DNA of 46,127 bases from Akkermansiaceae bacterium (GTDB lineage Bacteria; Verrucomicrobiota; Verrucomicrobiia; Verrucomicrobiales; Akkermansiaceae), in NCBI GenBank assembly GCA_023299815.1, contig JALZWA010000305.1:1-46127 (forward strand). The letters are read 5' to 3'. The translations under genes were made by a program, and so were the position numbers. The notes under the pieces were generated by a model. That model saw nothing but the letters and a program-made list of their open reading frames with translations, ran no database searches and was not told the DNA's origin. Positions 12,712 to 33,245 of this stretch are shown piece by piece (the stretch's first letter is position 1; every line of letters begins with the position of its first letter).

Positions 12712-12846
12712 GATAGCTGTCCCAGCTGTCTTCTCTGCCCGTAACTAAGAAAGGAGCCGTGGCGCCTCGCCACTGATCAACCGCGCTCCTCAACCCCAGT
12801 CTCCGCAGCATGTCGTCCGTGGGACAACCGATACGGATGATCCTAC
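12708..12846. repeat. REPIN-like inverted pair of GTAG-headed REP hairpins between gpmI and galK
   Basis: Left: GTAG-GATAGCTG-TCC-CAGCTGTC-TTCTC. Right, reverse-complemented: GTAG-GATCATCCG-TAT-CGGTTGTCC-CAC. Confidence 0.82.
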
Positions 12847-22792: not shown

Positions 22793-22862
22793 GGTTAAAT
22801 TCCCAGCATGTCGTCCGCAGCGGCGAGGGCGCCACGACTCCTTTGCGTGCTCCGCTGCGAGC

Positions 22863-22947
22863 GTAGGATCATCCGTCTCGGTTGTCCTCCCCGCCCGCAA
22901 GCGAGCCCATCATCCGCGGAGAGGACAACCGGGACGGATGATCCTAC
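22863..22947. repeat. REPIN-like element with 27-bp inverted arms
   Basis: GTAGGATCATCCGTCTCGGTTGTCCTC (22863-22889) versus GAGGACAACCGGGACGGATGATCCTAC (22921-22947): 26/27 complementary. Confidence 0.92.
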
Positions 22948-23008
22948 GTTCAGAAAAGTTGGCCTTACTTTTGAATAAATTTATGTGCTTCAGGGTCTCA
23001 TTGTTACC

Positions 23009-23278
23009 ATGAAGAACTCTTTATCCAAACTTGCCGCCGTCTCTCTCGCCGCAACCATGGGCGTGAGCTGCACCACTTCTTACGATCGTCAGGGACGCAC
23101 CGTGAAATCAGTTTCTCCTGAGGGCGCAATCATCGGCGCAGTTGCGGTAGGCCTGATTGGTTATAGCATCTCTAAAAATCGCCATAAGGATGATGACCGC
23201 CGTGTCTATTATCACGATCGTGGTCGTGGTTATGATGATGGTTATCGTGGCCGTAGAGATCAGCGCGGGCGCTACTAA
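23009..23278 (+). CDS. Small putative lipoprotein
   Basis: MKNSLSKLAAVSLAATMGVSC lipobox, glycine-rich hydrophobic stretch, then Arg/Tyr/Asp-rich tail. Confidence 0.75.
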   Translation: MKNSLSKLAAVSLAATMGVSCTTSYDRQGRTVKSVSPEGAIIGAVAVGLIGYSISKNRHKDDDRRVYYHDRGRGYDDGYRGRRDQRGRY

Positions 23279-24030
23279 TCCCAGCTCTCGTCTGATCTTC
23301 CCTCGATGAAGTTTTTCAGAAGAGGGTCGGATGATTTTTTTAACTCGGCCGCAGTCCCTTCCCAGTGGACGCGGCCTTCTTTCATGAAGACGATCCTGCT
23401 GGCGATGCGGAAGACGCTCCGCATCTCGTGGGTGACGACGATATTTGTGATGCCGTGATCGAGCTCGAGATCCTTGATGAGGTGGTCGATGGAGTCCGCG
23501 GTCACGGGATCGAGTCCGGCGTGCGGTTCATCATAAAGAACACAGCAGGGTTTCTCTACCACGGCGCGGGCAAGGGCGACGCGCTTGCGCATTCCTCCCG
23601 AGAGCTCGGAAGGCATCTTGTCCTCCTGTCCGGGGAGTTTGACGATGGTGAGCGCTTCGGCGACGCGCTCGCTGATCTCGGCCTTATCCTTGATTCCTGA
23701 TTCCCGGAGAGGGAAGGCGATATTTTCCTTCACGGTGAGGGAGTCAAAAAGTGCGCCGCTTTGAAACATCATGCTGATGCGGTGGCGCGCGAAGGTGAGT
23801 TCGCGTTCCTTCAGACCGGCGAGATCTTTTCCCTCGAAAATGACGGAGCCTGCGTCCGGTTTGAGCAGGCCGATCATGTGCTTCATAAGGACGGACTTAC
23901 CACCGCCGGAGCCACCGAGGAGGATGAGGGTTTCGCCTCGGTAGACATCGAGATCGACCCCCTTCAGCACGCGCTGCTCGCCGAAGCTTTTTTCAAGCCC
24001 GCGGATTTTCAGGAAGACCTCTTTTTTCAC
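23275..24030 (-). CDS. ABC transporter ATP-binding protein (MlaF/Ttg2A-like)
   Basis: LLGGSGGGKSVLMKHMIGLLKPDAGSVIFEGKDL, LSGGMRKRVALARAVVEKPCCVLYDEPHAGLDPVTADSIDHLI, NIVVTHEM. Start tentatively GTG at 24030 (VKKEVFLKIRGLEKSFG); the track ORF begins at 24105. Confidence 0.9.
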   Translation of the reverse strand: MKKEVFLKIRGLEKSFGEQRVLKGVDLDVYRGETLILLGGSGGGKSVLMKHMIGLLKPDAGSVIFEGKDLAGLKERELTFARHRISMMFQSGALFDSLTVKENIAFPLRESGIKDKAEISERVAEALTIVKLPGQEDKMPSELSGGMRKRVALARAVVEKPCCVLYDEPHAGLDPVTADSIDHLIKDLELDHGITNIVVTHEMRSVFRIASRIVFMKEGRVHWEGTAAELKKSSDPLLKNFIEGRSDESWD

Positions 24031-24116
24031 CACTTCACTGTAGTGCCGCTCTGTGAGCGTCGCAATTCTAAGTATTGGGAGACGGGATAATTGTGAAAAT
24101 TTCATTCACAAATCGG

Positions 24117-27100
24117 CTACTGCGGGTCTGTTGGGATCCAGTGAGTTTTGGGACTGGTGAATTGAAAAAATCCACCTGCAGCTTCTAGTTGCAGGGTGAT
24201 TTTACGAGTGCTTTCGGGAATCGCAGCGGCCGGAATTCGATAGGTCGCCTGCTGCCAAACTGGAGTGGATTGAGCCCAGCTGATGACGTTTTGGAGAGCG
24301 GTTTCTCCATTCTTGAGGGTCGTTTCTCCCAATTTTACGCCATCCTCATCGGTGAAGAGAAATTTCCAAATCGTTCTGGAGTTGCCTTGGTTGAGCCAGA
24401 ATGTGAATAAAAAATCGTGATCTGGACGGGTCGGCCATGCAAGGAGAGGCGCAGAGTATTCTATATTTGCGGCGCGCTGTGCGAGGTGAGAGGCATTCCA
24501 AGTTGATTGATGACGGAAGGGGCCTGATGTTGGGCTTTTCTTAAAACCGTATGTTTTAATTTCGTGGGTGTGGAGAAGGACAGGCTCAAAGATTTGAGTG
24601 TGACTCAGGAGTGTCTCCTTCTGTGATGCCTTATTGATCTTCAGTCTCACTTTCGAGCCGGCTGGGAGTTTTGCGGAGGGAATAGTGGTGTGACCTGGAA
24701 TCGTTACCTTTGGGAGGGTGAGGTTTGTGATGTTTCCTTGGGGAGTGATCGCTGAAATATGAAGATCGAAGAGCCCGTCGAAAGCTGAGGTCTTCACATC
24801 GAGGACTCCGTTGACCGGTTTTTCGTTGATCTCATCAATACCGAAGAGAGACCAGCAAAGGATGACTGATTCGTCTTTCTGGAGTGTAAGTGAAGCATTG
24901 AGCTTGAGGTGCTCAGGTTCCCCGCGACGCAGTGAGTTGGTGAGTTGATTGACGAGGGGATTTTTGTAGTGAAGTCCGTTCTCAGGTGTGCTGATTTTTT
25001 TGTAGTCTGAGAGGAGTTGTTTGGTGAGCAGCTCGTGCTGGGAATAAAAGGCAGAGGAAGTAATGAGAGAGAGGTTGTTCCACCAACTGTAACTGTTCTT
25101 ATCCATGGCCTTCATCCGAGGGATGCGATCATCGATAGGGAGAAGATTGAGGACTTCGCGGACGCGCTTGGGATCCGCATATCGGTAGTTTTGGAGGAGA
25201 TCTCCCCAGAAATGAGGGCTGTCGATCTGAATGGGGTTGTTTGCGAGCCGAGTCACAATTTCAGGAAAGATCTGATCTGAAGCTTCTGTGAGAGCGAGAG
25301 GGATGATCTCGTATTGGTGTCGGTAGAGCTTGTCCGCTTCGAGGGCAGAGGGGTCTCGCGAGTGCCAGAGTTGGTCGAATATTTCAGATCGAGACATCCC
25401 TTGTTCGGAGGAGAAGAGATAATGAATGTCTGCCAGGAAGCGGGTGCGCTTGTCATTGAAAATGAGACGGTGAATATGAGCAAGGCGCTTGGCTCCATCA
25501 GGGAGGTGTTGGAGGTTGGCGTTCAGAAATGAGAGCTGTCGGCTAGACTGCAGTTGTTGAGCTGTCGATACCAGATGGTTTGGGATTTCGCGGTGCTTGT
25601 TGGGGTCGGTGGAGGCGGCGAGGAGGAGGAGCTTGAGATGAGGGGGGGTATCAGCTCTGAGTTCTGGAAGAAGCGAATCGGCGAAGTAGGTGAGGTGGTT
25701 GAGTTTTGCGGGTTCGCTCCAGAGTTTTGTGCCGGAGCTAGACATACTCGAAGTGGAGGCAAAGCTCAGCGGGGAGAGGGGAAGACCACTGGTGTCTTTT
25801 GCGCAAAGAGCTTCGCGAATCCAGCGAAGGGAGATGTCAGGATCAGGGTTGTCAGCAAGAGACACGGGAAGAGATCCCCAGCGGCGAACGTAGGAGAGGC
25901 CTGCGCGGCGCGCCCATAGGAAGTAGCGTTCAGCAAAGTCTGGATCACCGGCAAGAATGCTGGAGAGAGGGAGAGATGAGCCGTTGGAGATCTCGGTGAG
26001 GAGGAGGGGGTCGAGAGATTCGAGATAGGTCATGGCTTCCTCTTTCCAATTTCGATCGGGATCTGACTTGGAAAGCTTGTGTCCGTAGTCGGAGATGAGT
26101 CGGCCAAGTTGCTCGAGGCCAAAGCCGTCTTTGTAGATGGCCAAAGCGTCGGAAAGTTCAAGGAAGGTGGTTCCATTCAAGATTGAGGAATCGAGAAATT
26201 CTGCGATATCTTCTCGCTCTATGGCTTCCTCAGCCGCTTCTCTTGCAAGGTCTTCTTTGAATGGTTGCTGTGGCGAAAATTTAAAGAGTTTTACCTTTTG
26301 ATCGAGTTGCTCATCGAAGGGAGCTCCCTCTCTTTTATTATAGCTGAAATAGTAGTTTTTAGCTTTGAGGCGGGACTTGAGGTAAGAGGGCGGGTAGGTC
26401 TCTAGGAGTTGATTGAGTTGGGCTAAATCACTGAGGTTCCAATTTTTTCGAGCTGCTTTTACAAAAGTGAACTCTGGTGTGTCGGGTCCTTTCCAAGATT
26501 GAAAAAAGAGACCGACTGGATTGTCTTTTGATTTGTAAATTGGGTGGTGGATGCAGAGGTGGTAGGCGAGGTTGCGAGGGCTGATTTGGATGTTTTCGCT
26601 GAGGTGGCGAGAGAGTTCTTTCAGTTGTTCCGAGTCCGTACAGAGGTCGAATCTAGAGTTGCGGTTGGTGGAGTATCCGTTCCGGTTAATGCTGTAGCTG
26701 TTGGCACTCAGGAAAAGGAACTGTGAAGGAAAGAGTTGGTTTAGAAATTTGTCTTTTTCAGCGGCGTTGCCCCATCGGCGATTACTTCGAGTTGGATTGG
26801 CTCGCAGTATATCGGGGGTCGAGGCTGCGGTGAAGAGAAGGCAGCCTAGAAGGCGGTCGTGGAAAAAGTCTTCAGCCTCCTCTTTTTCCGAGCGTGGATT
26901 TGGGAGTAGAGTCTCCCCGAGAAGTTGGAGCGCGGCTTGGCGAATGGGTTGGCAGCCTCGGATCGAGAGGAAGTATTTGCGGAGGATTTCCTCTTGAGTC
27001 AGAGAGGAGTCTTGTGCAAGCCGGACAGTCGCTCGCTGGAGAATTTCTCTGAGGTGTTCGTTCGTGAATTCGAGATCGGCGAGGGAGCGAGCCCAGTTCT

Positions 27101-28664
27101 GACTGTGGTAGATGTTGTCCTTCAGAAGAGCGCTCGAAAGGTATTTTTTGCGCCATTGATCGTTCAGTTCTATAATTATTTGTGGCTGTTTGTATGTCCG
27201 AATACTCGTCAGGCCGAAGCGGGCGAGGGTGGAATGGTTTCCGGAGGACCAGTCAATGCTGATGAGAGTCTCTAGGAGCTGTTTGTGGAGGTTCGCGAAG
27301 AGGTAGTATTTTGCTTTTCCCGCGAGAGTGAGGGATTGGAAGTGGGGGTTATCTTTCAGCGCTGAGAGGATGGCCTCGGGTGGGAAATTCTTGCGTTCGT
27401 TGACGAGAACCCAAAGAAGGGGATCATTGTGAAGAGTGAGGGCGTGTTGGTCAGGGAAGAAAGAGATCGATGCTTCATACTCGAGGAGATCATTAGCGGA
27501 TTTGCCAGCGAGGTCTGGAAACGAGTCTCGCAGTGGTGCAGATTTCAGGAAATCCAAGAGGGCTTCTGAGTTATCTAGTCTGGCGATGAGGTTCATGCGG
27601 GCCCAGTAGTCAGGGCGTGTTGGATCCAGTGCCGTCTTTTCGAGGTGATCTATGATCGGGTTGGTCCACTTCCCCGATCTTGGACGGAGGGCATTCGTTT
27701 TGAGAGCGAGCTCGAGAGCCCAATCGGTCGCCTCCTGAGGATATGCGTGAATCCAGCGAGTGAGCCATCGGTTTCCAGCATTTCCGGTGTTCAATAGGGC
27801 TAGGGCCGCGCGGAGGCGGGTGTCAGGGTCGCCTTTTCCCCCGAGGAGTTGATCCGCGATTTTCTCTCCGACCCAGAGGGACGGGTAGAGGAGGAGTTCG
27901 TTGAGCGAGAGGTTTTCGAGCGAACGAAGCTTGTCTTGGAAGTATGGGAGATCACCGTAGTGGAAAAGTGCGAAGAGGTGCCACTGCTCGCCAAGGCTCT
28001 CCGATTGGGTGAGGGCTTCTTTCCACGTGCCTAGATGGAATGCCAAGTCCAGTTCGAGAGGGTAAATGTAACGACGAAAGGTGGTGGCTGGGACTTCTTC
28101 TCTCAGAAGATCGATCAGGCTTTGGAGGCCCTCGAGATCATCGGCGATATTGAAAAGGTGAGCTTCCAGAGGGAAATCCTGCCAGTCGCTTACGGATCGA
28201 AATTCAGCGAGGGCTTCTTCAGTCTTCTGTGAGCGGAAGAGGAGTCGGCCATATGCGATTTGTTCGCGGGGTGATCGAGATGTGGCGGCTGAGTAGAGCT
28301 CGAGAGCCTTCTCTTCTTGTCCCCGGAGTTCGTAGAAGCGGGCCTCAAGCCAGCGCTGCTGTTGAGGTAAGACAAATGCTTGATGTCGGGTGTGACGATA
28401 TCCAGTAGCTACGCGGATGAAGTGAACAATTTCATCCTCTTGAGAGGCGGTGAGCTTGAGTCGTGCGGTCGCATCAAGCCAACTGCGGTGAGGACGCGCG
28501 AGAGGTTTAAAACGATGACCGGGAGCCGCTTCAAAATAAGTAGTGGCAGCGGTGATTCCACCACGGAGGTGGTCCGTTGAGATGGTGTCACCGAACTTGA
28601 TTTTGGGATTTGCTGCTAAAGCAAGAGGGAAGCAAGCTAACAGAGAAATGAGTAGAGAGCGCAT
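24117..28664 (-). CDS. Very large secreted alpha-solenoid/TPR-like protein of unknown function (1515 aa)
   Basis: Signal peptide MRSLLISLLACFPLALAANP; long alpha-helical region with TPR-like EEKALELYSAATSRSPREQIAYGRLLFRSQKTEEALAEF; C-terminal beta-rich region. No recognised enzyme motif. Confidence 0.8.
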   Translation of the reverse strand: MRSLLISLLACFPLALAANPKIKFGDTISTDHLRGGITAATTYFEAAPGHRFKPLARPHRSWLDATARLKLTASQEDEIVHFIRVATGYRHTRHQAFVLPQQQRWLEARFYELRGQEEKALELYSAATSRSPREQIAYGRLLFRSQKTEEALAEFRSVSDWQDFPLEAHLFNIADDLEGLQSLIDLLREEVPATTFRRYIYPLELDLAFHLGTWKEALTQSESLGEQWHLFALFHYGDLPYFQDKLRSLENLSLNELLLYPSLWVGEKIADQLLGGKGDPDTRLRAALALLNTGNAGNRWLTRWIHAYPQEATDWALELALKTNALRPRSGKWTNPIIDHLEKTALDPTRPDYWARMNLIARLDNSEALLDFLKSAPLRDSFPDLAGKSANDLLEYEASISFFPDQHALTLHNDPLLWVLVNERKNFPPEAILSALKDNPHFQSLTLAGKAKYYLFANLHKQLLETLISIDWSSGNHSTLARFGLTSIRTYKQPQIIIELNDQWRKKYLSSALLKDNIYHSQNWARSLADLEFTNEHLREILQRATVRLAQDSSLTQEEILRKYFLSIRGCQPIRQAALQLLGETLLPNPRSEKEEAEDFFHDRLLGCLLFTAASTPDILRANPTRSNRRWGNAAEKDKFLNQLFPSQFLFLSANSYSINRNGYSTNRNSRFDLCTDSEQLKELSRHLSENIQISPRNLAYHLCIHHPIYKSKDNPVGLFFQSWKGPDTPEFTFVKAARKNWNLSDLAQLNQLLETYPPSYLKSRLKAKNYYFSYNKREGAPFDEQLDQKVKLFKFSPQQPFKEDLAREAAEEAIEREDIAEFLDSSILNGTTFLELSDALAIYKDGFGLEQLGRLISDYGHKLSKSDPDRNWKEEAMTYLESLDPLLLTEISNGSSLPLSSILAGDPDFAERYFLWARRAGLSYVRRWGSLPVSLADNPDPDISLRWIREALCAKDTSGLPLSPLSFASTSSMSSSGTKLWSEPAKLNHLTYFADSLLPELRADTPPHLKLLLLAASTDPNKHREIPNHLVSTAQQLQSSRQLSFLNANLQHLPDGAKRLAHIHRLIFNDKRTRFLADIHYLFSSEQGMSRSEIFDQLWHSRDPSALEADKLYRHQYEIIPLALTEASDQIFPEIVTRLANNPIQIDSPHFWGDLLQNYRYADPKRVREVLNLLPIDDRIPRMKAMDKNSYSWWNNLSLITSSAFYSQHELLTKQLLSDYKKISTPENGLHYKNPLVNQLTNSLRRGEPEHLKLNASLTLQKDESVILCWSLFGIDEINEKPVNGVLDVKTSAFDGLFDLHISAITPQGNITNLTLPKVTIPGHTTIPSAKLPAGSKVRLKINKASQKETLLSHTQIFEPVLLHTHEIKTYGFKKSPTSGPFRHQSTWNASHLAQRAANIEYSAPLLAWPTRPDHDFLFTFWLNQGNSRTIWKFLFTDEDGVKLGETTLKNGETALQNVISWAQSTPVWQQATYRIPAAAIPESTRKITLQLEAAGGFFQFTSPKTHWIPTDPQ

Positions 28665-28735
28665 AAAAATGATGATCGAAACTGTAGCGACCCTGTTGAG
28701 GGTTTGAGTCTAAATGAAGAGGGCTTGCAGGCGAG

Positions 28736-28834
28736 CCGAGGCTCTCCTCAAGGCCACGGATTTTCAGGAAGACCTCATCGCTCACTGGGGCACTGTAGGG
28801 TCGCGGGAGGAGCGTCGCAATTCTTAGTCTTGGG
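28736..28834 (-). pseudogene. Truncated direct copy of the 5' end and upstream region of the ABC ATPase gene
   Basis: Gapless alignment to 23981-24079 by hand, about 75 of 99 positions identical, including cggattttcaggaagacctc and gagcgtcgcaattct. Encodes V(M)SDEVFLKIRGLEESLG versus VKKEVFLKIRGLEKSFG. Confidence 0.8.
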
Positions 28835-28960
28835 GGATTGAGGAGTCTCGCTTCTTGAGTTCTCAGGGTGTTTCTGTAGCTTGTGAATGTCTTTTTGGTG
28901 ACGGAGGTTCTTGGTGATTCGAGTTAGCCGCCGGAGAGTTTGAACGTTTGGCCGAGAATT

Positions 28961-29116
28961 ATGTTAGTGGAGATACGAGATCTATTTTTTCCCGTTGGAA
29001 TTGCGTTCGTTTGTCTTTACTTCGGAGGGGTAAATAAATGGCCAGCGCTTACTAAACTGGGAGTATTTTTCCTAGTAATGGGAGTGATTAATGTCCTCAG
29101 AGCTTCTGCCAGCTAG
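28961..29116 (+). CDS. Small putative membrane protein (51 aa), below the ORF-track cutoff
   Basis: MLVEIRDLFFPVGIAFVCLYFGGVNKWPALTKLGVFFLVMGVINVLRASAS*: two hydrophobic segments. Confidence 0.45.
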   Translation: MLVEIRDLFFPVGIAFVCLYFGGVNKWPALTKLGVFFLVMGVINVLRASAS

Positions 29117-29230
29117 TGAAATTCAGTTTCGATCGAGTTGATAAGAGAGTTATGGGGCTTTGATTACTCAGTTATAATCATTCCAAATTCCTAGCCATTT
29201 GACGGAGAGCATTGCTAGAATATGGGGGAC

Positions 29231-29259
29231 GTAGGATAGTCGTCTCGGCTGTCTTCTCT
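29231..29259 (+). repeat. Solo REP hairpin (GTAG family)
   Basis: GTAG-GATAGTCG-TCT-CGGCTGTC-TTCTC; 8-bp stem fully paired allowing G-T wobble; same architecture as 12708. Confidence 0.75.
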
Positions 29260-29335
29260 GTGCGCGCGTGGACGCAACACCTTTGGTGTTAGGGTTGAGG
29301 GGGGATGGATCGCGGATTGTTTCTCTTGAGTTCTT

Positions 29336-29962: not shown

Positions 29963-30163
29963 CTATTTGAGAAGAGTGATCAGCCAGAGGAGGAAAGTTG
30001 GAATCAGGATGAAAAGTGCGCCAATGATGGAGAAGCGCTTCCAGCTCCGCTCAGTCGATTTATTAAACTCGGTCTGGCCCAGCGTCGAACTCTCATTGTG
30101 ATCTCTCCACCAAGTGAAGGGCCAGATGATGATGGAAAGGAGGATGCCAAGGAGGTCGTCCAT
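29963..30163 (-). CDS. Small membrane protein
   Basis: MDDLLGILLSIIIWPFTWWRDH...FSIIGALFILIPTFLLWLITLLK; two hydrophobic segments, directly downstream of trpS. Confidence 0.6.
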   Translation of the reverse strand: MDDLLGILLSIIIWPFTWWRDHNESSTLGQTEFNKSTERSWKRFSIIGALFILIPTFLLWLITLLK

Positions 30164-30169
30164 CTCAAT

Positions 30170-31195
30170 TTAGATGAGTCCCACTGCTTTGCGCACGCGC
30201 TCAAGCACGATGGCGGCTTCGGCTTGCGCCTTTTCTGCGCCAGCGGCTAGGATGGCGTCGACTTGGGCGGGGTCGGCGGCGAGCTCGGCTCGCTTTTCGC
30301 GCATGGGTGCGAAGTAGTCCCAGTAGGCGTCTGCGAGGCGCTTCTTGAAGTCGCCGTAGCCGCAGCCGCCGTTTTGGTGGTCTGAGACCATTTGGGCGTA
30401 GTCGGACTCGCTGGCGAAGAGTTTGTAGAGGGAGAGGATGATGGAGTTCTCGGTGGGCTTGGGTTCTTCGACTTGGGCGGAGTCGGTCTGGATCTTCATG
30501 ATGAGCTTCCGGAGGGGCTTTTCCTCGCCGAAGATGGGGAGGGTGTTGTTGTAGCTCTTGCTCATTTTTTCGCCATCGAGTCCGGGGACCTTGGCGGTGG
30601 CGGTGCGGATGCGGGCTTCAGGCATGACGAGGGTGCCATCGCCGTAGCGCTCGTTGATTTTTCCAACAAGGTCGCGGGTGACCTCGAGGTGTTGTTTTTG
30701 ATCTTCACCGACGGGGACGACATTTGAATCGTAGAGAAGGATGTCAGCCGCCATGAGGGCGGGGTAGGCGAAGAGGGCGTGGTTCGCGGAGAAGCCCTTC
30801 GCTATTTTATCCTTATAGGAGTGGCACCTTTCTAAGAGTCCCATGGGGCAGACGGTGGAGAGGATCCAGGCGAGCTCGTTGACGGCGGGGACGGCGCTTT
30901 GTTTGAAGAAGACGCCGCGTGAGGGGTCGAATCCGCAGGCGAGGAAGTCGATGGCGACGCCTCGGACATTTTCGCGAAGGACGGAGGCCTCGCCGGTGGT
31001 GGTCATGGCGTGGTAGTCGGCGATGAAGTAGTAGCCATCCCCCTCATCCTGAGCGTCAATGGCGGGTTTCATGGCGCCGAAGTAATTGCCCACATGGAGG
31101 CGGCCGCTGGGCTGAAGTCCGGTCAAGATTCTCACGGAGGACGCTTTAGCGGTGTGGGGAGAGTGCGGCAAGGGGATTTCGTGGGTGACTTGCAT
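30170..31195 (-). CDS. trpS: Tryptophan--tRNA ligase
   Basis: RILTGLQPSGRLHVGNYFGAM, YFIADYHAMTT, VPVGEDQKQHLEVTRDL, GEKMSKSYNNTL. Start trimmed to MQVTHEIPLP. Confidence 0.96.
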   Translation of the reverse strand: MQVTHEIPLPHSPHTAKASSVRILTGLQPSGRLHVGNYFGAMKPAIDAQDEGDGYYFIADYHAMTTTGEASVLRENVRGVAIDFLACGFDPSRGVFFKQSAVPAVNELAWILSTVCPMGLLERCHSYKDKIAKGFSANHALFAYPALMAADILLYDSNVVPVGEDQKQHLEVTRDLVGKINERYGDGTLVMPEARIRTATAKVPGLDGEKMSKSYNNTLPIFGEEKPLRKLIMKIQTDSAQVEEPKPTENSIILSLYKLFASESDYAQMVSDHQNGGCGYGDFKKRLADAYWDYFAPMREKRAELAADPAQVDAILAAGAEKAQAEAAIVLERVRKAVGLI

Positions 31196-31232
31196 GCTTG
31201 TGTGATGGGTTGAGGGGTGCAAAACTCCTTTT

Positions 31233-33245
31233 ATGCGACTGCTTGCGATCTTGCTCTCAACCACGCTGGGTCTCTCAGCAGGGGAACCCACGGAGGTGGT
31301 GCTGCGGCTTTTAGGGAAAGCGAAAGAGAGCAAGGGGGAGCTTGAGAGCTACGAGGAGCTGTCGATGTCGCCTTTTGTGGGACCGAACCAGAAGAAGGCG
31401 ATCGGCAAGCGCTGGGAGGAAATCGGGGGTTGGGTGGAGTTTGAAGAGGTGAGCTTTTCGGCAGGCAGTGAGAAGGTGGATGGCGATCTGGCGGCGGTGA
31501 TCGCTTGCGGGATCGGAAGAAAAGGGCCGGATGATGTGCGCTTGTTCGGCTTTGGTCTGCGGAAGGGTGAGACGGGCTGGAAGGTGGCGCCTTGGGATGG
31601 AGTTTTTGATAATTCGGGGATCGGCTTTGAGGAGGCTCGCGTGGCGCGGGCCAAGGAGCTGGAGAAGTGGATTGGCCTGGAGCGAGTGAGTCAGGGGAAT
31701 GAATTCCGGGAAGCGGCGCTTGAGGAATATCGAAAGTCTTTACGAGGTCTGGTGGATGCCAAGACGCTGAAAAAAGCGAAGCCGGAGGAGGCGCTGCGGC
31801 ACTTCATGAAGGCGGTGTCTGAGAAGAAGGAGTTAGAGATGCTGATCTGGCAGGGGGTGCTGGAGCGCAGCGTGGCGGATGACTACGACTGGGAACGGGT
31901 GATGGAGGTGGCAAAGGAAGGCCTCGAGGGGAAGGATGAGCGCAAGGTCTGGCGGCTTCTGACGGACTCTAATGTGATTCGCTTGGAGGTGGCGACAGAC
32001 GATGATGATGCTGAGACCTCGGTGCTGATGGGCTTTATCGCGCCTTATGAGACGAGCTTGCGGAGGCAGCGCAATCAGGTGATTCGCTTCTATCTCGAGA
32101 ATCACGGTGCAGGTTGGCGGGTGAAGATGCCGACTTTCTTTTCTCATGCGAACGAGAATTCGAGCGCACATTTTAATGCGCACCAGCAGGAGATGAATTG
32201 GCGGGATGAGGAATTTAGTTCTCAGTTGACGACACTTTTTGAAAAGGAAAATAAGCCGCGTCGCGTCGAGTCACCGGATGAACTGATGAAGCTGGTGGCG
32301 AAGGATCTGGGAGACCGGTCTTATCCGCAGCTCGTGCGCTTGCTTTATCGGGATCCTGCTCCGAAGGAGGGAGATGATGCGGAGGTTGCTGAGGCTGCTG
32401 GAAGCCCAGATGCGCGCTATCAAAGCACGGCGAAGTGGTGGAATGACATTTTCAAGAAGAAGAATGAGGCGGAGTTCACGGTGGCGAAGGTGAAGATCGA
32501 GGGCGATCTCGCGCTGGGGATTCTGAAGGTGAATCTTCCAGGCGAGTGGCAGTCTGAATTGAGCCCTGTGTGGATGCGGAAGGTGAAAGAGGGTTGGTCA
32601 TTTATGCCGAATGAAATCGATGTGCAGGATTCGATGGCGAGGGAGGCAGAAGCGCTCAATGAGTTCTACGCTGCGGAGGAGAAGGAGATGAAAGAGAATT
32701 CAGGGAAGGATCTTCTCCTGGAGGTGGGCACCTTTGTTTCTGGTAAGGAGGCTCCAGAGAAAGGGGCTGCTCTGGCAGGGGTGAAGGAATGGCGTGAGAC
32801 GCTGAAGGGTGCGAAGATGCAGCTTCTCCTCGCGAAGTCAGGGATGGTGGAGATTCCTGAAAAGGGCTCGAAGACTTTCCGTGATCTGTCGTCGGGCATG
32901 AAGGGCGCGCGGGCTGGGGTGGTAGAAGATGAGATCATCGATTCAAAAAGCGAGGGACCTTTTCGAGCGGTGAGCATGATGGTGGATGGTGGGCGTGGGC
33001 TGGAGATGCACTGCCCGCTGATGATTTTTGCGGAGACCGATAAGGGGCCGCGGGTGCTGATCGATGTCGAGCTGTGGCTCGCGACAAACCGGGGTAAGCG
33101 CATGCGGAATGCGACGGCTTTGTTGAAGCTGAAGAAGGAACTGAGTGAGGCTGATCATGCTTCGCTAAAGGCGCTCTTTGACTGGCATGAAGAGGTGGCG
33201 CGTCCTGTCTGGGATGCTTGGGATGAAAAGCGGGAGGAAAAATAA
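31233..33245 (+). CDS. Secreted protein of unknown function at the head of a MoxR operon
   Basis: Signal peptide MRLLAILLSTTLGLSAGEP; three similar beta segments ending in W(K/R)V/WSF. Stop separated from the moxR ATG by 3 nt. Confidence 0.85.
   Translation: MRLLAILLSTTLGLSAGEPTEVVLRLLGKAKESKGELESYEELSMSPFVGPNQKKAIGKRWEEIGGWVEFEEVSFSAGSEKVDGDLAAVIACGIGRKGPDDVRLFGFGLRKGETGWKVAPWDGVFDNSGIGFEEARVARAKELEKWIGLERVSQGNEFREAALEEYRKSLRGLVDAKTLKKAKPEEALRHFMKAVSEKKELEMLIWQGVLERSVADDYDWERVMEVAKEGLEGKDERKVWRLLTDSNVIRLEVATDDDDAETSVLMGFIAPYETSLRRQRNQVIRFYLENHGAGWRVKMPTFFSHANENSSAHFNAHQQEMNWRDEEFSSQLTTLFEKENKPRRVESPDELMKLVAKDLGDRSYPQLVRLLYRDPAPKEGDDAEVAEAAGSPDARYQSTAKWWNDIFKKKNEAEFTVAKVKIEGDLALGILKVNLPGEWQSELSPVWMRKVKEGWSFMPNEIDVQDSMAREAEALNEFYAAEEKEMKENSGKDLLLEVGTFVSGKEAPEKGAALAGVKEWRETLKGAKMQLLLAKSGMVEIPEKGSKTFRDLSSGMKGARAGVVEDEIIDSKSEGPFRAVSMMVDGGRGLEMHCPLMIFAETDKGPRVLIDVELWLATNRGKRMRNATALLKLKKELSEADHASLKALFDWHEEVARPVWDAWDEKREEK

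Follow-up and report, generated by a model that had tools for sequence, protein, structure and literature searches.

A large orphan gene in the genome of an Akkermansiaceae bacterium (designated here as G000) was found to be bracketed by two copies of a 103 bp direct repeat, each corresponding to the 5′ end and upstream region of the adjacent gene for an MlaF-like ABC ATPase. With somewhat better than even probability, this arrangement would represent the insertion of a single orphan gene at species level, accompanied by duplication of its 103 bp target. The window, i.e. the whole stretch of DNA analysed here, encompasses 46,127 nt (contig JALZWA010000305.1). The case is unusual in detail and ordinary in kind, and provides a fairly clean and datable example of an orphan gene entering a conserved neighbourhood, in which the repeat copies on either side, a relative devoid of the gene and a putative duplicated promoter are visible together.

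A direct repeat tightly flanks a single large gene

Comparison of the two repeat copies, both located on the minus strand, showed that copy I (23980-24082) and copy R (28735-28837) align without gaps across 103 nt at an offset of 4755 bp, with identity at 78 of the 103 positions (76 %). The second-best 103-mer match to copy I within the window reached 48/103, and a blastn search of the whole genome (2.9 Mb) located the repeat in just two places, I and R (E value of 2e-14). In minus-strand orientation, it comprises ~52 nt of upstream sequence followed by codons 1-17 of the ATPase gene (counted from GTG 24030), the upstream part (52 bases) having 15 mismatches and the coding part (51 bases) 10. 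An earlier note on this DNA had described a gapless match of 28736-28834 to 23981-24079 (~75/99 identical), covering the upstream region and the first ~15 ATPase codons, with the same offset and only the large gene in the interval; these observations were all borne out, the full extent of the repeat being slightly greater.

The inter-repeat segment (24083-28734, minus strand, 4652 bp) is filled by one ORF of 1515 codons (24117-28664, minus strand), whose ATG lies 71 nt from R and whose end lies 35 nt from I, such that the repeats immediately flank the insert. Outside the repeats, I runs into the body of the ATPase gene and R leads away toward WRS, a tryptophanyl-tRNA synthetase-like gene (30170-31240, minus strand; Pfam tRNA-synt_1b); outer flanks of this kind would fit an insertion.

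The inner copy retains the start of the ATPase gene

The ATPase gene (23275-24030, minus strand, 251 codons; Pfam ABC_tran, E value of 1.4e-32) has orthologues in most members of the genus, with 69-83 % identity and a common start position. Its longest ORF opens at ATG 24105; the ATPases of relatives, however, start at a position matching or close to GTG 24030, which is therefore the likely start codon. In copy R, a separate GTG occurs at 28785, the reading being VSDEVFLKIRGLEESLG vs. VKKEVFLKIRGLEKSFG. The coding part of R carries three synonymous changes within the EVFLKIRGLE stretch, as well as the non-synonymous changes K14E and F16L. Among relatives, residue 14 of the ATPase is a lysine in 19/20 and residue 16 a phenylalanine in 20/20. 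Since R is changed at both of these conserved positions, whereas I keeps K14 and F16, I is the functional copy and R a decayed duplicate, i.e. a remnant of 17 codons.

ATPase homology past codon 17 was found neither on the R side, between the repeats, nor beyond the insert. The earlier suggestion that a second, full ATPase paralogue had been replaced by the large gene is thus unsupported; a complete lost paralogue, or the old deletion of one, is possible at most. A related scenario would involve a tandem duplication of the ATPase gene, perhaps along with adjacent genes, with the large gene residing in or entering the duplicated block and a deletion leaving the first 17 codons of the outer copy. 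The synonymous changes in R, which look as if this copy had been coding for a time, would agree with such a history, as would the rearrangement-prone nature of the locus, where the ATPase gene and its MlaD partner have become separated. It is nevertheless unlikely, though not negligibly so, given that neither an MlaD gene nor further ATPase sequence was found in the inter-repeat segment or upstream of R, that the large gene occurs as a single copy in the genome, and that an additional deletion is required.

Neither the gene nor the repeat is present in the nearest relative

The nearest genus relative as judged by these genes (G006, with an ATPase that is 83 % identical) exhibits the order WRS, ~420 bp, ATPase and MlaD, with neither the large gene nor the repeat. 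Its WRS-ATPase interval contains a degenerate homologue of the gene for a small membrane protein that follows WRS in G000 (29970-30164, minus strand; 40-41 % identity over 51-55 aa by tblastn). At L034:8277-8453 of the same relative, a frame terminating in LVAKELLRWFPAKKTP and resembling the 3′ end of a lost gene overlaps with the start of the ATPase gene. Among 25 genus genomes with WRS, the WRS-ATPase adjacency was observed in G000 and G006 only, and in many of the other relatives compared an oxidoreductase-like gene is divergent from the ATPase gene. As WRS was next to the ATPase gene in none of these other relatives, this gene order is likely to date from the common ancestor of G000 and G006, whereas the large gene and the repeat were seen in G000 alone.

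The divergence between I and R amounts to 0.36 (JC) in the noncoding half and 0.29 overall, compared with a four-fold-site divergence between G000 and G006 of 0.55 (WRS), 0.85 (ATPase), 0.87 (MoxR) and 0.93 (SNF2) substitutions per site. Because the noncoding divergence of the repeat is below this range, the duplication would be younger than the G000-G006 split if the 52 noncoding bases evolve near-neutrally. The duplication-associated insertion put forward in the earlier note is thereby supported, in part by the synteny comparison in relatives that it had proposed: the 4.65 kb segment is absent from the only relative with the same WRS-ATPase adjacency, and the repeat would date from after the split. 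On these two grounds, insertion is the best reading.

G006 contains only the coding half of the repeat, its 52 nt upstream of the ATPase gene being unrelated, and the upstream 52 nt of the repeat were found in none of the relatives; the pre-insertion site is therefore not visible base for base. An intermediate state (the repeat without the gene, or the gene without the repeat) was likewise found in none of the genomes compared. Because of this, two rivals to insertion retain some of the probability, namely the tandem duplication and a second one, in which the large gene was already resident between WRS and the ATPase gene, a 103 bp piece of the ATPase 5′ end was copied upstream of it later by an ectopic template switch, thereby providing a promoter, and G006 lost the gene. 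Such a loss would be conceivable in view of the decayed sequence in the G006 interval (the degenerate membrane ORF and the apparent gene 3′ end), and later copying would also accord with the two promoter-like hexamers left unchanged in both repeat copies (described below). Yet no remnant of the large gene was found in G006, and its absence from all other relatives makes a loss in G006 no simpler than a gain in G000. We consider this course of events to be rather improbable, and slightly more so than a tandem duplication.

A possible route of insertion

Under insertion with target duplication, a ~4.65 kb segment carrying one large gene would have entered just upstream of the MlaF-like ATPase gene after the split from the nearest sampled relative. 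The insertion would have duplicated 103 bp at the entry point (~52 bp of upstream sequence plus the first 17 codons), either by fill-in of a staggered break or by template switching in the course of repair. The ATPase start would have continued to be provided by the inner copy, and the outer copy would have turned into a non-coding leader ahead of the new gene and then drifted; still containing -35/-10-like hexamers, it may drive that gene. It is the direction of insertion, the break-repair step and the use of the promoter that we infer here.

No transposase was found in the insert, whose sole ORF matches no Pfam family, and neither a recombinase nor terminal inverted repeats were found at the insert. 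The target duplications of ordinary transposons are far shorter than 103 bp. The insert was consequently rejected as a transposable element on account of both the missing enzymes and the length of the duplication. In known insertions with long target duplications, attributed to fill-in or template switching, direct repeats tightly flank a lineage-specific insert and the outer flanks carry on the original neighbourhood, as is the case here. The present locus differs in that there is no recombinase or terminal inverted repeat, in that 103 bp greatly exceeds transposon target duplications, and in that the copies have already diverged by 24 %.

A candidate promoter is shared by both repeat copies

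Both copies retain the arrangement TTGCGA-17 nt-TACAGT, located six bases before the GTG. Between I and R, the two hexamers exhibit no mismatches, compared with 7 in the 17 nt spacer; the probability that 15 mismatches among 52 positions would all miss the 12 hexamer sites by chance is about 0.009, for hexamers that were picked after looking. Their match to the sigma-70 consensus is 8/12, which is below the threshold of the promoter scanner, and the arrangement is at most a hint of a weak promoter. The idea that the large gene sits behind a borrowed upstream region is accordingly possible as far as the unchanged hexamers are concerned, but is weakened by the modest consensus match. Transcription from R would yield an mRNA containing a frame of 65 codons (28588-28785, minus strand) that extends from the start codon of R across the ATG of the large gene in a different frame. 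The situation resembles promoter capture by gene duplication or insertion, where a new gene comes to follow immediately after a duplicated upstream region and start, except that the promoter here is a candidate with a weak consensus match. That one species gained an orphan gene through a break-repair event which simultaneously placed a copy of the neighbouring promoter and start ahead of it, the newcomer thus being linked from the outset to a promoter taken from a conserved transporter gene, is a tentative and, on the whole, doubtful proposition.

The core AGAATTGCGACGCTC is identical in I and R, which might suggest that the copy at 28735 represents a conserved regulatory element of this genome rather than a gene remnant. 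This appears very improbable: the repeat is confined to its two locations, half of it is ATPase coding sequence, and the motif was found in no relative. The relaxed motif AGAATTGCRNNCTC yielded 32 among the matches listed, all with one mismatch, ~2 times the number obtained with the reversed-pattern control. A genome-wide regulatory role for R was thus disfavoured, the motif recurring neither in the genome nor in relatives.

A half-decayed integron attC site abuts the outer copy

An integron attC-like site is located directly against R (28826-28952, plus strand; 56 bits and an E value of 7.6e-13 with covariance model R1). It was first seen as a blastn repeat common to multi-copy sites in G011, G004 and G012, from whose attC copies the model was built; those of G012 display cassette-like spacing, and a HicB/HicA-like toxin-antitoxin pair, recognised by eye, lies between two attC sites of that genome in a cassette-like manner (L101:125-863). 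The identification as an attC-like site was tested, in that the same model also matches sites next to IntI genes in G012, G003, G009 and G018. In the window, the 3′ (R′) arm of the site is intact and the 5′ arm is unpaired in the model alignment where the site meets R, indicative of a half-decayed attC whose 5′ arm has decayed or been cut. A 51-codon membrane-protein ORF (28961-29116, plus strand; read from the sequence) starts just past the R′ end, as a cassette would.

Integrons have been described in Verrucomicrobiota (PMC8618304). Seven genus members possess integron integrases that score above the family cut-off, with adjacent attC sites in at least four of the seven; the genome under study contains five other, weaker attC-like sites and no integrase above this cut-off. 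A lone attC-like site with a small cassette-like ORF and no recognised integrase is reminiscent of CALIN elements (attC sites or arrays without an integrase), the difference being that a single, half-decayed site is involved and that the large gene is, as far as visible, not its cassette. The large gene was rejected as an integron cassette, since it has one attC only, lies on the strand opposite to the attC cassette orientation and has no attC at its other end, near copy I.

The decayed attC abutting R, the further attC-like sites and the integrases of other genus members raise the question of whether integron activity placed the segment, with the attC marking an off-target insertion or recombination and the duplication resulting from the ensuing repair or recombination. 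Off-target integrase rearrangements have indeed been documented (PMC10127599). The lack of a bounding second site, the opposed strand and the lack of an integrase above the cut-off all speak against such an origin, for which the probability seems slim. Integron recombination acts at G^TT and makes no 103 bp duplications; for this reason, and because no attC occurs at the other end, it is not taken as the main mechanism.

The large gene encodes an orphan protein

The large ORF has a GC content of 0.58/0.41/0.56 at the three codon positions, typical of real coding sequence, and its product possesses a hydrophobic N-terminus resembling a signal peptide. The GC and codon-use comparison proposed in the earlier note placed the gene at the low end of the window (51.8 % GC), where one neighbour is equally low in GC, and its composition is not clearly foreign. 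The protein matched no Pfam family and no solved structure by sequence, and a search of ~800 genomes in partly overlapping sets (57 relatives, a further 386 from the order and a further 387 from the phylum) yielded no credible homologue; a peptide-pattern scan of 84,980 GTDB species genomes also gave no match. The putatively secreted 1515-residue protein is, on this basis, an orphan.

Three weak matches, each spanning 60-72 residues, were obtained in G201 (order; E value of 0.0019, with a stop inside), G230 (order; E value of 0.005, within an ORF of different make-up) and G478 (phylum; 66 residues at 29 %, E value of 0.001). All three were treated as chance or generic helical-repeat similarity and not as relatives of the gene. 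Structure models of two pieces of the protein, built without relatives (pLDDT of 43 and 50), suggest with low confidence that the N-terminal part is all-helical (helical-repeat) and the C-terminal part rich in beta structure.

Signs of repeated breakage at the locus

Two features, neither described in the earlier note, mark this region: the attC remnant abutting R and, on the far side of the ATPase gene, a rearrangement junction. The ATPase stop codon (23275-23278) overlaps with the terminus of a small, convergently oriented lipoprotein-like gene, and at this point collinearity with G006 switches, the SNF2 side corresponding to contig C138 and the ATPase-WRS side to contig C116 of that genome. 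The stop codon is thus a rearrangement junction relative to G006. In relatives inspected, the orthologous ATPase gene precedes an MlaD-like gene, as in MlaF/MlaD-type ABC lipid transport operons; the two genes are apart here, with the MlaD partner on another contig, C187 (L094). Because R abuts a decayed attC and the ATPase stop coincides with such a junction, the locus has been broken repeatedly, as the attC remnant and the lost ATPase-MlaD linkage indicate, and the WRS-ATPase region represents a recurrent breakage point.

A near-perfect palindromic repeat with GACGGATGATCCTACG ends, resembling a REP element, is located at 22862-22948; a copy of its end with one mismatch occurs at 12832, and a similar stretch is found near 29228-29294. 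Rfam matches near 22.9 kb, which sit on this palindromic repeat, were below gathering scores and were discarded.
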